Assembly: GCA_018970445.1 (NCBI GenBank)
Contig: JAGWWF010000009.1
Span: 66,141-122,978, forward strand
Origin: Alphaproteobacteria bacterium
Lineage (GTDB): Bacteria; Pseudomonadota; Alphaproteobacteria; Sphingomonadales; Sphingomonadaceae
DNA: 56,838 bases
Direction of reading: 5' to 3'
Numbering within the stretch: the stretch's first letter is position 1; each line of letters begins with the position of its first letter. This document shows positions 9,600 to 56,838 of this stretch, piece after piece. The notes beneath the pieces were generated by a model. That model saw only the letters and a list, made by a program, of their open reading frames with translations. It was not told where the DNA came from and searched no databases. A program made the position numbers and the translations under genes.

Positions 9600-9935
9600 A
9601 TGTTTTCCAGTGACCGCCCCATCTATCGCCAGATCCGTGACCGCATTGTCGACCGGATATTGACGCTGGGTGATGGCGCGATGCTGCCATCGGTGCGGGC
9701 GCTGGCTGCCGAAGCCGGTGTAAACCCGCTGACTGTGGCCAAGGCCTATCAGGACCTGCAAGCCAGTGGGCTGGTGCGGGCACGGAAGGGCGTTGGCCTG
9801 TTTGCCGCCGATGATGCGGTGCGCGCCCTGCTGGCCGCCGAACGCGAAGCCTTCCTGACCGAGGAATGGCCGCGCGTCGCCGCCCGCATCAACCGGCTGG
9901 GGCTGGACGCGGCCGACCTGCTGGAACAGGCCTGA
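9600..9935 (+). CDS. Short GntR-family regulator (YtrA-like)
   Basis: 111 residues. The winged helix-turn-helix is GntR-type: PIYRQIRDRIVDRILTLGDGAMLPSVRALAAEAGVNPLTVAKAYQDLQASGLV. The short C-terminal tail (about 40 residues, two helices) instead of a large ligand domain is characteristic of the YtrA subfamily. Such regulators usually control neighbouring ABC transporter genes, but none is adjacent here. The ATG at 9600 is preferred because the frame upstream runs through the promoter. Confidence 0.82.
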   Translation: MFSSDRPIYRQIRDRIVDRILTLGDGAMLPSVRALAAEAGVNPLTVAKAYQDLQASGLVRARKGVGLFAADDAVRALLAAEREAFLTEEWPRVAARINRLGLDAADLLEQA

Positions 9936-9941
9936 TCCGCG

Positions 9942-10838
9942 CTACCAGCGCTCCTCCGGCCACCAGGGGAACACGGCCGGCATGTCCTGGCTCACCGTAT
10001 CGGGATAGACCGGGGCACGCTTTTCCAGAAAGCTGACCACGCCTTCCTTCGCATCGCCGGAGCGGCCGCGCATATAGACCATGCGGCTGTCGAGCCGGTG
10101 GGCATCCCACGGGCTGGCGGCGCCGGCCATGCGCCACAGCATCTGCCGGGTGAGTGCGACCGACACCGGCGCGGTATTCTCGGCAATCTCCAGCGCCAGC
10201 GCGCGGGCAGCAGGCAGCAGATCATCGGGCGCATGGGTGGAACGGGTGAGGCCGCCCCTTTGCGCTTCGGCGGCATCGAACACCCGCCCGGTCATGCACC
10301 ATTCCAGCGCCTGCGGCAGGCCGACCAACTTCGACAGGAACCAGCTTGACCCAGCCTCCGGCACGATGCCGCGCCGGGCAAAGACAAAGCCGAAGCGGGC
10401 GGTGTCGCTGGCCAGCCGCATGTCCATGGCCAGCTGCATGGTGGCCCCGATGCCCACCGCCGGGCCGTTGACCGCAGCGATCACCGGCTTCAGGCTGCGG
10501 AAGATGCGCATCGTCACCTGGCCGCCGCCGTCGCGGGTGGCGGGATGCGTCCAGTCGATGCTGCCATCATCCCTGACCGGGCTGGCACTGCGCGCGCCGC
10601 CCAGCTTCTCATAATCAAAGGTGGCCGCGCCGGCGCTCAGGTCCGCCCCGGCGCAGAAGGCACGGCCGCGGCCAGTGACGATGACGGCTTTCACCGCATC
10701 ATTGGCGTCCGTCTGGTCAAAGGCGGCAATGATTTCGGTCATCATCACGCCCGTGAAGGCGTTCAGCTTGTCAGGCCGATCCAGCGTGATGGTGGCGATG
10801 GGGCCATCGATGTCGAGGGCGATCTGGGTGTAGCTCAT
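9942..10838 (-). CDS. Enoyl-CoA hydratase/isomerase (crotonase) family protein
   Basis: 298-residue crotonase-fold enzyme acting on a CoA thioester, probably in fatty-acid or aromatic-acid beta-oxidation. The oxyanion-hole motifs are present: RAFCAGADLSAG and AAVNGPAVGIGATMQLAMDMRLAS. FARRGIVPEAGSSWFL carries the glutamate usual in hydratases. It begins 1 bp after the thiolase stop, so the pair forms an operon and would catalyse successive steps. An insertion of about 25 residues after the first motif (FDYEKLGGARSASPVRDDGS) makes it longer than the ~260-residue norm. Confidence 0.88.
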   Translation of the reverse strand: MSYTQIALDIDGPIATITLDRPDKLNAFTGVMMTEIIAAFDQTDANDAVKAVIVTGRGRAFCAGADLSAGAATFDYEKLGGARSASPVRDDGSIDWTHPATRDGGGQVTMRIFRSLKPVIAAVNGPAVGIGATMQLAMDMRLASDTARFGFVFARRGIVPEAGSSWFLSKLVGLPQALEWCMTGRVFDAAEAQRGGLTRSTHAPDDLLPAARALALEIAENTAPVSVALTRQMLWRMAGAASPWDAHRLDSRMVYMRGRSGDAKEGVVSFLEKRAPVYPDTVSQDMPAVFPWWPEERW

Positions 10839-10839
10839 G

Positions 10840-12015
10840 TCAAAGCGCCTCGATGATCGTCACATTGGCCAGGCCGCCGCCTTCGCACATGGTCTGCAGC
10901 CCCCAGCGCTTGCCGCGGTTGTGCAGGGCGTGCACCAGCGTTGCCATCAGCTTGGTGCCCGATGCACCCAGCGGGTGGCCCAGCGCGATGGCGCCGCCAT
11001 TCACGTTCAGCCGGGCATGATCGGCCTCCAGCTGTTGCAGCCAGGCCATCGGCACGGAGGCAAAGGCCTCGTTCACTTCGTAAAGATCAATGTCGTCGAT
11101 CTTCATCCCGGCGCGTTGCAGCGCCTTCTTGGTGGCACCGATCGGGGCTTCCAGCATGATCACCGGGTCTTCGCCCACCACCGTCATGGTGTGGATGCGG
11201 GCCAGCGGCTTGACGCCCAGCGCCTTCAGCCCGCGCTCGTTCACGATCATCACGGCGGACGCGCCGTCGCAGATCTGGCTGCTGGTGGCTGCCGTCAGCC
11301 GGCCGCCGTCGGGGTTGATCAGCTTCACGCCCTTCACGCCGTCGAGGCTGACATCAAAGCGGATGCCCTCATCCTGAGTATGAAGGTGGGGCACCCCCTC
11401 GTGCGTGGTGACGTTGATCGGCACGATCTCGGCCGCAAAGGCGCCGGCCCTGGCCGCTTCGCCGGCGCGGCGCTGGCTTTCATAGCCATATTCGTCCAGC
11501 ATGTCCTTGGAAAGGCCGTATTTTACCGCAATCATCTCGGCGCCGGTGAACTGGCTGAACTGGATGCCGGGATAGCGCGCGGCCATGCCGTCGCCATAGG
11601 GCATGCCCATTCCGGCCTTGGCCGGCAGCGCCACGGTCATGCCCATCGGCACGCGCGTCATCGATTCCACCCCGGCGGCGATCACCACGTCCATCTGGCC
11701 GCTCATCACCGTGGCGGCAGCAAAATGAATGGCTTGCTGGCTGGAACCGCACTGGCGATCCACCGAGGTGCCGGGCACCGATTCGGGCAGTTTCGACGAC
11801 AGCACGGCGTTGCGGGCGACATTGGTGGATTGCTGGCCGCCCTGGCCAACACAGCCCATGATCACATCCTCGATCAATGCCGGATCAACGCCGGTTTCAT
11901 CCACCAATGAATCCAGCACCTTGGCCGAAAGATCGGCGGGGTGCCAATCGCGCAGCAGGCCGCCGCGGCGGCCCCCGGCAGTGCGCTTGGCGGCAACGAT
12001 ATAGGCTTCGCTCAT
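10840..12015 (-). CDS. Acetyl-CoA C-acyltransferase (thiolase)
   Basis: 391 residues. Nucleophile Cys89 is in VDRQCGSSQQA; the second active-site motifs NEAFAS, GGAIALGHPLGASG and CEGGGLAN are all present. Catalyses thiolytic cleavage or condensation of acyl-CoAs. The start MSEAYIVAAKRT at 12015 is the family N-terminus; the frame is open for another ~96 codons but that sequence is alanine-rich and antisense to the next gene. Transcribed with the crotonase gene. Its start is divergent from, and close to, the DUF1254 gene. Confidence 0.92.
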   Translation of the reverse strand: MSEAYIVAAKRTAGGRRGGLLRDWHPADLSAKVLDSLVDETGVDPALIEDVIMGCVGQGGQQSTNVARNAVLSSKLPESVPGTSVDRQCGSSQQAIHFAAATVMSGQMDVVIAAGVESMTRVPMGMTVALPAKAGMGMPYGDGMAARYPGIQFSQFTGAEMIAVKYGLSKDMLDEYGYESQRRAGEAARAGAFAAEIVPINVTTHEGVPHLHTQDEGIRFDVSLDGVKGVKLINPDGGRLTAATSSQICDGASAVMIVNERGLKALGVKPLARIHTMTVVGEDPVIMLEAPIGATKKALQRAGMKIDDIDLYEVNEAFASVPMAWLQQLEADHARLNVNGGAIALGHPLGASGTKLMATLVHALHNRGKRWGLQTMCEGGGLANVTIIEAL

Positions 12016-54828: not shown

Positions 54829-56838
54829 GTGACGCTGTTGAACAGACTTGCCCAAGCCAAGACCGAAGAAGACGTGAAGGATGCGTATATCGCAGCGCTT
54901 GGCTTGAAGTCCTATTTCAAGGGGCTGGTCGATATCCAGACCGAGGAAATCTGGTTCGAAGCCAAAGACGCACCCACGCCCGCCATCATCATGTTCGGGC
55001 AATTGCTGGTTTATGTTCGCGCCGCGCGCAAGCGCGGCGAACCAATCCCGGCCTTCCTTGCGGTGATAGACCGCGAAAAGGCCGCCATCATGCCAACCGA
55101 AAAGGCGCTGCCGCTGCTGGAGGACAAGGCCATCATCTGGCCGAAATCCGGTTCGCAGGCTGGCAAGGAACTGGCGCAGCAAGTCGCCCCTTATGTGCAG
55201 GCGCACATCGTTGAATATACGATTGCCGGCGACGAGGCCGCCTTCATCAAAGCCGTGAAGGATGCCATCCGCGAACGACGCATCATCCGCACGCCCATCA
55301 CGCCCGACAATCTGCGCCAGGTGTTCGATCGTTGGGTGGACATGGTGGGCAGCGAACTCGGCGTCACCAGGCTGGCCGATTATGCCGTGCTGTTCTTTGC
55401 CGATATCATGCACGATGGCACCGAGGAAGCGATGCAGCGTCCTGCCGGTGCGCGTTTGCTGTTCACCGGAACGAAGCCGGTGTTCCTGCTCGATGGCGAG
55501 ACCTACGAACTGGCGAGCGAGCGCGGCTATCGCAATTTCTGGGCCATTTATCACCGCCCACCGGAACAGAAACACCGCCACTATCTGCTGGAACGGCGCG
55601 ACAGCCTGCTGCCGGTGGACGAACAGAAGTTCAAGGGCGCGTTCTACACACCGCTGCATATCGTGGACAAAGCCTATGACCAGTTGCGCGCCACGCTGGG
55701 TGAAGACTGGCAGGAACGCTATCTGGTGTGGGACATGTGCGCCGGCGTCGGCAATCTGGAAGCCAAGCACAGCAATTTGCGCAACGTCTTCATGTCCACG
55801 CTGGATCAGGCCGATGTGACGATCATGAAATCCAACCCGGCCTTCGCCGGGGCGGAGATTTTCCAATATGACTATCTCAATGATGACGTGACCGATTTCG
55901 GCGAGATTGATTACAGCCTATCGAACAAGCTGCCGCTGGCGCTGCGGCAGGCAATTGCCGATGCGCGCGAAGGCAAGAAAGGCGCGAAGCCGATCTTGGT
56001 ACTGATCAATCCGCCATATGCCGAAGCGATGAATGTCGACAGCAGAAAAGAAACCGGCGGCGGGGCTGCCGCAATAAAAACAGGCGTTGGGAAAACGCGA
56101 ATTTCTTATAGCATGACCGATCTAGGCTATGCAGCGCGTGAACTTTTTGTGCAATTTTTGCATCGTATCATGAAGGAGATTCCAATTTCGAAGCTTGCAA
56201 TGTTTAGTAAATTGAAATATGTAAACTCACCAAATTTTGATGAATTTCGTCGCCGTTGGACGGCCAAGTATCTAGATGGTTTTGTTGTTCATAGCCGTGT
56301 CTTTGATACGCTAAAGGGTGATTTTCCAATCGGCTTCCTCGTCTGGAACCTGGCAGAAAATGCTCCCACTGATCGTATAGATACGATTGCGCTAGATCGC
56401 ACCGGCTTAGCGATAGGCGAAAAATCATTTTATCGCGACTTGCCAAGAGCATCCCTTGCTGAGTGGATTGTTCGGCCACGATCCAACCGCACGCCCGCGC
56501 TGCCTCTTAATAATGCACTAGTTCCGACCGACCGAACCAATGACGTCCGTGGACGTTATTGGGCAGATGGTGCGATCGCAAGCATGATATGCAAAGGTAA
56601 TGACTTCCAGAACGCGGGCAATGCAACAGCACTTTTGTCATCTGGTTACAACAGTGCCGGAGCGTTCTTCGTCACTAGGCTAAACCTCTGGCAGTCTGCT
56701 GTTGTATTCAGTGCCCGCCGCCTTATCAAGCCAACATGGCTGAACGACCGCGACCAGTTTCTGCAACCCTCCGAACCACTGACCAATGAGTTCAAATCTG
56801 ACTGCCTCGTCTGGATGCTGTTCAACGGCAGCAACCTG
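54829..56838 (+). CDS. Nuclease-like / adenine DNA methyltransferase-like protein (3' end cut by window edge)
   Basis: At least 670 residues, still open at the right edge. The N-terminal part has DIQTEEIWFEAKD (residues 35-47), a candidate PD-(D/E)xK nuclease core. A central methyltransferase fold follows: SAM motif I WDMCAGVGNLE (Asp302) and catalytic motif NPPY (394-397) of N6-adenine methyltransferases. The combination resembles type IIG/Eco57I-like restriction-modification enzymes; exact family unresolved. GTG at 54829 has GGAGG 9 bases upstream. From about 56050 the sequence becomes AT-rich, with codons such as TTT, AAA and ATA rare in the rest of the window, suggesting foreign origin of the 3' half. 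The MTase assignment is firmer than the nuclease one. Confidence 0.75.
   Translation, partial: MTLLNRLAQAKTEEDVKDAYIAALGLKSYFKGLVDIQTEEIWFEAKDAPTPAIIMFGQLLVYVRAARKRGEPIPAFLAVIDREKAAIMPTEKALPLLEDKAIIWPKSGSQAGKELAQQVAPYVQAHIVEYTIAGDEAAFIKAVKDAIRERRIIRTPITPDNLRQVFDRWVDMVGSELGVTRLADYAVLFFADIMHDGTEEAMQRPAGARLLFTGTKPVFLLDGETYELASERGYRNFWAIYHRPPEQKHRHYLLERRDSLLPVDEQKFKGAFYTPLHIVDKAYDQLRATLGEDWQERYLVWDMCAGVGNLEAKHSNLRNVFMSTLDQADVTIMKSNPAFAGAEIFQYDYLNDDVTDFGEIDYSLSNKLPLALRQAIADAREGKKGAKPILVLINPPYAEAMNVDSRKETGGGAAAIKTGVGKTRISYSMTDLGYAARELFVQFLHRIMKEIPISKLAMFSKLKYVNSPNFDEFRRRWTAKYLDGFVVHSRVFDTLKGDFPIGFLVWNLAENAPTDRIDTIALDRTGLAIGEKSFYRDLPRASLAEWIVRPRSNRTPALPLNNALVPTDRTNDVRGRYWADGAIASMICKGNDFQNAGNATALLSSGYNSAGAFFVTRLNLWQSAVVFSARRLIKPTWLNDRDQFLQPSEPLTNEFKSDCLVWMLFNGSNL

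Follow-up and report, generated by a model that had tools for sequence, protein, structure and literature searches.

A putative single-chain restriction-modification gene was found at the end of the window (the whole stretch of DNA analysed here, 56,838 nucleotides from a genome of the Sphingomonadaceae), and this gene is a mosaic with conserved ends and a divergent middle, a second version of which is present in the same assembly. We put at roughly three in four the probability of the whole explanation, namely that the gene encodes a Type IIG/IIL-like enzyme, that its middle module has been swapped, that two versions occur at one chromosomal site and that the low GC at third codon positions (GC3) of the module is usual for its kind.

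An open reading frame with a composition break

The frame (54829..56838, plus strand) was open from a GTG at 54829 to the end of the window, with 670 codons and 0 stops. The last base of the window is also the last base of contig C11, and since the frame runs off the end of this contig the gene is incomplete, with codons 1-670 of about 800 present and the last ~130 absent. An earlier note on this DNA had called the reading frame intact, which holds in that no stop interrupts the 670 codons but not at the contig end, where the gene is truncated; as for sequence beyond the window, C11 stops there, and the 3' end of the gene is present on contig C42 of the same assembly.

The same note had described a change of base composition within the gene, and this proved to be real. 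Residues 1-392 had a GC of 0.588 and a GC3 of 0.75, compared with 0.486 and 0.458 for residues 393-645 (GC3, Fisher p 9e-14). A scan for the best GC3 segment (minimum length 20 codons, 500 permutations) located the sharp drop at residues 394-628, with a GC3 of 0.43 versus 0.75 outside and a log-likelihood gain of 33.0 versus a maximum of 13.3 over the 500 permutations. The 240 bp at 56101-56340, also singled out earlier as low in GC, had the minimum GC (0.396) of 944 intervals of 240 bp across the whole 56.8 kb (mean 0.672, sd 0.050), and the 5' part of the gene, at 0.588, also lay under this mean.

Conserved ends and an exchanged middle

Homologues were drawn from a pattern scan of species genomes, which gave 472 candidate stretches encoding a relative; the best 80 of the 472, with matches of 763-837 codons, were studied. 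Compared in 40-column blocks with a homologue of the same genus (L030), the window gene, whose middle we call version A, was 79-100% identical over residues 1-391 and 44-78% identical over residues 392-664, and the 3' end that follows version B, the second version of the middle, was 81-95% identical to L030. Among the sequences compared, the window gene was the closest to L030 in residues 1-390 (92%), yet the two shared 46% in residues 505-625, and the middle of L030 was closest to that of a Porphyrobacter locus (L049; 87%, versus 78% in residues 1-390). The middle of version A was 80% identical to the middle of L064, from a MAG named Phenylobacterium. The drop in identity to L030 past residue 391, together with the second version of the middle in the same assembly, bears out the mosaic that had been proposed for this gene.

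Across the family, 205 pairs were at least 85% identical in residues 1-390 (a set which includes the Bradyrhizobium loci L096-L099 compared among each other), and 186 of these 205 were at most 65% identical in residues 505-625, with medians for all 205 of 54% in the middle and 79% in residues 650-799. In none of 2850 pairs did identity in the middle exceed that of the N part by more than 10 points, and swaps between very distant members are thus not supported.

As read from these alignments, the exchanged unit is larger than the target-recognition domain (TRD), extending from just after NPPY (residue 394) to about residue 643. NPPY (residues 394-397; 56008..56019, plus strand), which we take to be motif IV of N6-adenine methyltransferases, was invariant in 72/72 aligned sequences and forms the left edge of the module, the low-GC3 segment starting at residue 394. 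Because the exchanged unit starts right after NPPY, version A (56020..56757, plus strand), recognised by its divergence from version B and L030 and by its low GC3, would comprise not just the TRD but also the second methyltransferase half. The shared 3' part starts at 56758..56838 (plus strand), where the last 81 bp of C11 were identical (81/81) to C42 12686-12766 (minus strand), and reaches the contig end. Homologous recombination within the conserved ends would be a candidate route by which the middle module is replaced.

TRD exchange as such is already known. Passages of PMC3077401 and PMC3983042 describe domain movement (DoMo) in Helicobacter pylori, where TRDs are swapped by recombination in flanking sequences, and Type III TRDs which move at conserved methyltransferase motifs. 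The exchange proposed here would be like DoMo in its use of flanking sequences, but whereas DoMo as described in those passages concerns S subunits of Type I/IIG systems and Type III genes, here the gene codes for one chain, with a module that takes in the second half of the methyltransferase. What is added to known TRD exchange is the family itself, the extent of the module, a second version at the site and a family-wide synonymous AT shift.

A second version of the module, probably at the same site

An end of contig C42 (13,428 bp) carries 379 in-frame codons of the same kind of gene, in the order middle version B and then the complete 3' end. Over the part present on C42, versions A and B had 65.5% DNA identity (426/650 aligned bases), and their composition was alike, with a GC of 0.486 in both and a GC3 of about 0.46. 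The 5' half of the gene occurred once in the genome, and a search of this genome (G000) for additional middle copies other than that on C42 found none. The end of C42 that lies inside version B overlapped no other contig end (89/90 ends examined, with the all-N ends of C1, C29, C35 and C45 masked, their matches being meaningless); the opposite end of C42 has a 144-bp overlap with C36.

Exact unmerged overlaps of 132-144 bp joined several pairs of contig ends in this assembly (C36/C42, C21/C43, C23/C2, C34/C37 and C13/C27, and further C17/C19, C9/C16, C24/C4 and C25/C26). A fixed assembler overlap of 81 bp was not supported, as the other contig ends overlap by varied lengths. The 104 bases at the start of contig C10 (42,055 bp) recur in direct order at its end, and this contig may therefore be circular, for instance a plasmid.

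The enzyme gene is preceded on C11 by a carboxylase alpha gene, and an amidase, an MGMT and a trypsin-PDZ protease gene lie on the C42 side (names by Pfam). In four relatives (G010, G011, G001 and G020) the carboxylase alpha gene was followed within 3.5 kb by MGMT-protease-GST and further C42 genes, with carboxylase and MGMT abutting and nothing between them in G020. In G014 it was followed by a C42-type amidase-MGMT-protease order, with a gene containing a guanylate/adenylate cyclase domain before the amidase, and the G009 contig breaks off after the carboxylase gene. Since synteny in relatives joins their genes, C11 and C42 are very probably neighbours, and the relatives' maps suggest that the enzyme gene was inserted as a single gene, at a site that varies. 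G014 is the one genome to support the place of the amidase, since the amidase homologues of G019, G010, G011 and G004 (best match in each 60-86% identical) lie away from the carboxylase gene.

The suggestion in the earlier note that the gene may mark the edge of a defence island was not upheld, the neighbours being metabolic or housekeeping by Pfam. PADLOC gave no match for five of seven neighbour proteins; of the other two, the trypsin-PDZ protease was matched by way of its protease domain, and one model weakly matched a response regulator. No cluster of conserved neighbour ORFs was found in more than 7 of the 80 loci. The octamers CCGGGGTG/CACCCCGG occur on both sides of the enzyme gene (window 54632 and 54732; L003 12231) and are probably ordinary intergenic repeats or chance, because the window has as many as 25 of them.

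The simplest reading is that A and B are probably two specificity alleles of one locus in a mixed sample or culture, and that one chromosomal site (carboxylase alpha - enzyme - amidase - MGMT - protease) would carry both. We consider it unlikely that one chromosome instead carries both, as a full gene and a second copy or silent cassette for phase variation. Two copies would suit a C42 that is without the 5' part of the gene, comes to a dead end inside B and is assembled into this genome through its overlap with C36, but the 5' half was found once, synteny places C11 beside C42, and C42 continues without a break from B into the shared 3' end and on in the direction of the amidase gene. One match was found in each of the 5 other relatives carrying the gene, and second TRD copies near the gene, as silent cassettes would give, were absent from the flanks of the 80 loci (reaching up to 4 kb in each direction, with at least 3 kb on both sides in 52/80) and, C42 apart, from this genome; C42 itself ends inside B.

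A predicted one-chain restriction-modification enzyme

Fold models and motifs indicate that the gene most likely encodes a one-chain restriction-modification enzyme resembling Type IIG/IIL in its predicted working. A putative PD-(D/E)XK nuclease domain (residues 1-131; 54829..55221) contains D35, E44, K46, Q58 and Y62, which we take to be its nuclease motifs, and is followed by a mostly helical spacer (residues 132-261; 55222..55611), placed by the predicted secondary structure of a homologue, L045. The methyltransferase then runs from GAFYTP to DMCAGVGN (55612..56007), presumably its motifs X and I, with D302 read from the sequence at 55732 (all plus strand); its assignment draws on the sequence, on invariant alignment columns and on Foldseek matches to DrdV, MmeI, BpuSI and M.TaqI.

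In the model of L045 (pLDDT 86.8, pTM 0.66) an N-terminal alpha/beta part, a mostly helical spacer, the methyltransferase, a beta-rich part at the position of the TRD and C-terminal helices follow one another. Its best solved matches were DrdV (E 9.4e-8), MmeI (7.7e-7) and BpuSI (1.9e-6) and then other N6-adenine methyltransferases, with M.TaqI and CamA also among the matches, at TM-scores that were low (at most 0.48 among the 50 solved chains listed). The N6-adenine methyltransferase core with NPPY and a TRD on its C-terminal side, as in Type IIG enzymes, is thus seen in the invariant motif and the fold matches, which support the adenine methyltransferase noted previously. The Type IIG arrangement of nuclease, methyltransferase and shared TRD in a single chain fits the architecture and the invariant motifs, with a non-significant fold match for the nuclease, and the large nuclease-methyltransferase first described can now be worded as an adenine methyltransferase with a probable, predicted nuclease domain.

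When modelled alone, the nuclease piece reached a pLDDT of 96 and had DrdV as its best fold match (E 0.16, not significant); the case for a putative nuclease therefore comes from the residues that are invariant and from where the model places them. D35, E44, K46, Q58 and Y62 were invariant in all 72 aligned sequences, and in the model of the N-terminal domain E44-K46 lie on or at the end of a strand, with Q58 and Y62 on the next helix. The non-significant fold match would agree with an orphan regulatory methyltransferase whose N-terminal domain is dead or not a nuclease, but we hold this to be quite improbable, as a dead domain would hardly keep these residues in 72/72 sequences from several phyla (by record title). 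In the predicted restriction-modification enzyme the putative nuclease and the N6-adenine methyltransferase would share one TRD in a single polypeptide, and because they share it a TRD swap would alter cutting and protection jointly, the cut and the protected target changing together.

DrdV, presumably a Type IIG/IIL enzyme, was the best fold match of the whole model and the best, though non-significant, match of the nuclease model, but at 12-13% identity, and it is longer (1011-1016 residues in the solved chains listed). Type ISP enzymes (LlaBIII/LlaGI), the chains of which have an ATP-dependent translocase domain, were rejected as a class, the product here having about 800 aa, compared with 1484-1517 residues in the solved chains of LlaBIII, and residues 132-261 being a short spacer. 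MmeI (Type IIL) has a five-domain order of nuclease, helical spacer, gamma-class N6-adenine methyltransferase, TRD and C-terminal helices, as outlined in PMC4833311, and the enzyme here is like it in this order, in the fold match and in a synonymous AT shift from NPPY to the TRD that genes with an MmeI TRD share (13/15; see below), but unlike it in length (about 800 versus 919 aa) and in a fold-alignment identity of 7-9%. BpuSI (Type IIG), with nuclease, helical spacer, methyltransferase and TRD in the outline given by PMC4833311, is likewise similar in fold but at 12% identity, with no PDB-sequence match. By sequence the protein falls outside the MmeI family: no Pfam model matched the window protein at E up to 1, no MmeI Pfam models were among the weak matches of 5 other members, and a search of this genome with PF20466 (MmeI_TRD) found nothing.

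A synonymous AT shift across the family

The GC3 of the middle was below that of the rest of the gene in 70/74 homologues, including 31/34 with a flank GC above 0.60 and 18/19 with a flank GC below 0.45, and it tracked flank GC (r 0.79, 71 loci) with a nearly constant offset; the drop of version A was among the deeper ones (rank 7/74 for middle minus N part). After correction for amino acid and for each gene's own codon usage, the residual was negative in 72/74 genes (mean -0.179), and in 13/13 after thinning to less than 75% N-terminal identity. Averaged in 20-residue blocks (L045 alignment coordinates), it stayed within 0.07 of zero up to residue 400, fell to between -0.15 and -0.22 at 401-620, was about -0.08 at 621-660 and lay within 0.05 of zero thereafter. 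Within the gene's own family the shift was weakest where the GC3 of the rest was below 0.35 (5/7 negative, mean -0.08).

Amino-acid make-up was rejected as a cause, the residual being already corrected for amino acid, as was protein conservation as the main cause, since conserved and variable residues were shifted to a similar degree. In columns with conservation of at least 90% the residual was +0.005 in the ends and -0.157 in the middle, and a weak conservation effect within the ends (rho 0.39, p 0.04) predicts -0.02 for the middle versus the -0.17 observed; in the gene's own family the synonymous AT shift of the module is independent of conservation. Position in any long gene was also rejected, since neighbouring ORFs were negative in 20/56 cases (mean +0.018) versus 72/74 in the family. 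For this control each of 56/80 loci supplied its longest flanking ORF with 450 codons or more (mechanical ORFs, presumed genes), read at the corresponding relative position.

Genes with an MmeI TRD (L211-L225; the 15 of 35 PF20466 matches that were near full-length with locus sequence, related genomes being included unthinned) showed the shift from NPPY to the TRD in 13/15 cases, with 10/10 negative where the GC3 of the rest was above 0.45 and 3/5 (mean -0.04) where it was lower. The near-zero values in these GC-poor genes reflect either a floor effect or a limit to generality. HsdS genes (L241-L270), compared with the upstream ORF, presumed to be HsdM, were negative in 20 of the 21 usable loci out of 30, again with related genomes unthinned, and positive in one (+0.17). 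Specificity modules in these three kinds of restriction gene were AT-shifted at synonymous third positions by about 0.14-0.18 on average. Such modules would thus usually have a low third-position GC, in the family as well as in MmeI-type and HsdS genes.

The earlier note had read the break as a sign of DNA from a foreign source, and had expected homologues of smooth composition if the mosaic were mistaken. Instead the shift recurred in 72/74 homologues, whether the host was GC-poor or GC-rich. Recent acquisition of a segment from an AT-rich organism, not yet adapted to its host, would account for a sharp-edged GC drop that coincides with the exchanged segment and is one of the deeper in the family, but we judge it very unlikely and reject it as the cause of the dip, as version B is as AT-shifted as A and the lower GC3 of the middle is found in GC-rich and AT-rich flanks alike, at a constant offset to flank GC. 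The break marks a swappable module and not a recent foreign source, because the shift recurs in nearly all homologues, where an import would predict scatter both ways. That segment A is an assembly misjoin, as a contig ending 81 bp into shared sequence might suggest, is highly improbable given that neither join breaks the frame of A, that homologues align with it over its full length and that it has a close counterpart in the middle of L064.

As to what causes the shift of swappable modules, weaker codon or GC-maintaining selection on fast-turning modules is an open candidate. More doubtfully, the conserved ends may often recombine and receive GC-biased gene conversion while divergent modules cannot form heteroduplex with their alleles and settle at a lower GC whatever the host; this is not favoured because the ends are not GC-enriched over their neighbourhood, the GC of the N part being below flank GC in 52/71 loci. 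Among the papers listed by literature searches, no title or abstract opening mentioned such a GC3 step, which is not proof of absence.

A sporadic but widely spread family

The gene was found in 5/147 other genomes among relatives and in 4/397 other genomes across the phylum, one of these four being a 60-residue piece and two being in two pieces. In G523 it lay in two pieces ~9 kb apart (that genome's contig C10:5-541 and 9830-11779), and in G462 (contig C28:26168-28559) it had a frame break near residue 555. By record title, the hosts of the best 80 relatives include alpha-, beta- and gammaproteobacteria, Sulfurimonas, Sulfurovum, Bacteroidetes, Ignavibacteria, Leptospiraceae, Opitutales and others, many of them MAGs; the family is sporadic but widely spread. 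In Fluviibacter and Acinetobacter, full-length members at 52-62% identity are encoded on plasmids of about 10-16 kb, the remaining plasmid matches having 22-30%, and 12/15 plasmid matches are annotated 'hypothetical protein', the other 3 being without annotation there. Two such loci, L208 and L209, are plasmids of 9,965 and 9,848 bp with 10 and 6 annotated features, in which the family member is a 'hypothetical protein'. A phage origin was rejected, the phage collection giving no match to the gene.

An HMM search returned 0 Pfam families for the window protein, even at E up to 1, with sub-threshold methyltransferase matches in 3/5 other members. NCBIfam gave matches far below cut-off and none near it in ten members scanned. 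PADLOC gave weak Type II methyltransferase or restriction-enzyme matches in 3/4 members, PHROGs gave one weak DNA-methyltransferase match among 3 proteins, and a PDB search with the family profile gave no match. The family is thus unnamed in the libraries searched (Pfam, NCBIfam, PADLOC, PHROGs and PDB) and may be listed in REBASE.

Were GC-biased gene conversion the cause of the shift, swapped modules in restriction genes could be mapped by their GC3 steps, and such genes would offer a natural experiment on a process that is disputed in bacteria. The edges of modules can be read from synonymous composition, and that the shift recurs in MmeI-type and HsdS genes calls for a general explanation. 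The family supplies many specificity modules on nearly constant scaffolds, which is useful for reading new methylation motifs.
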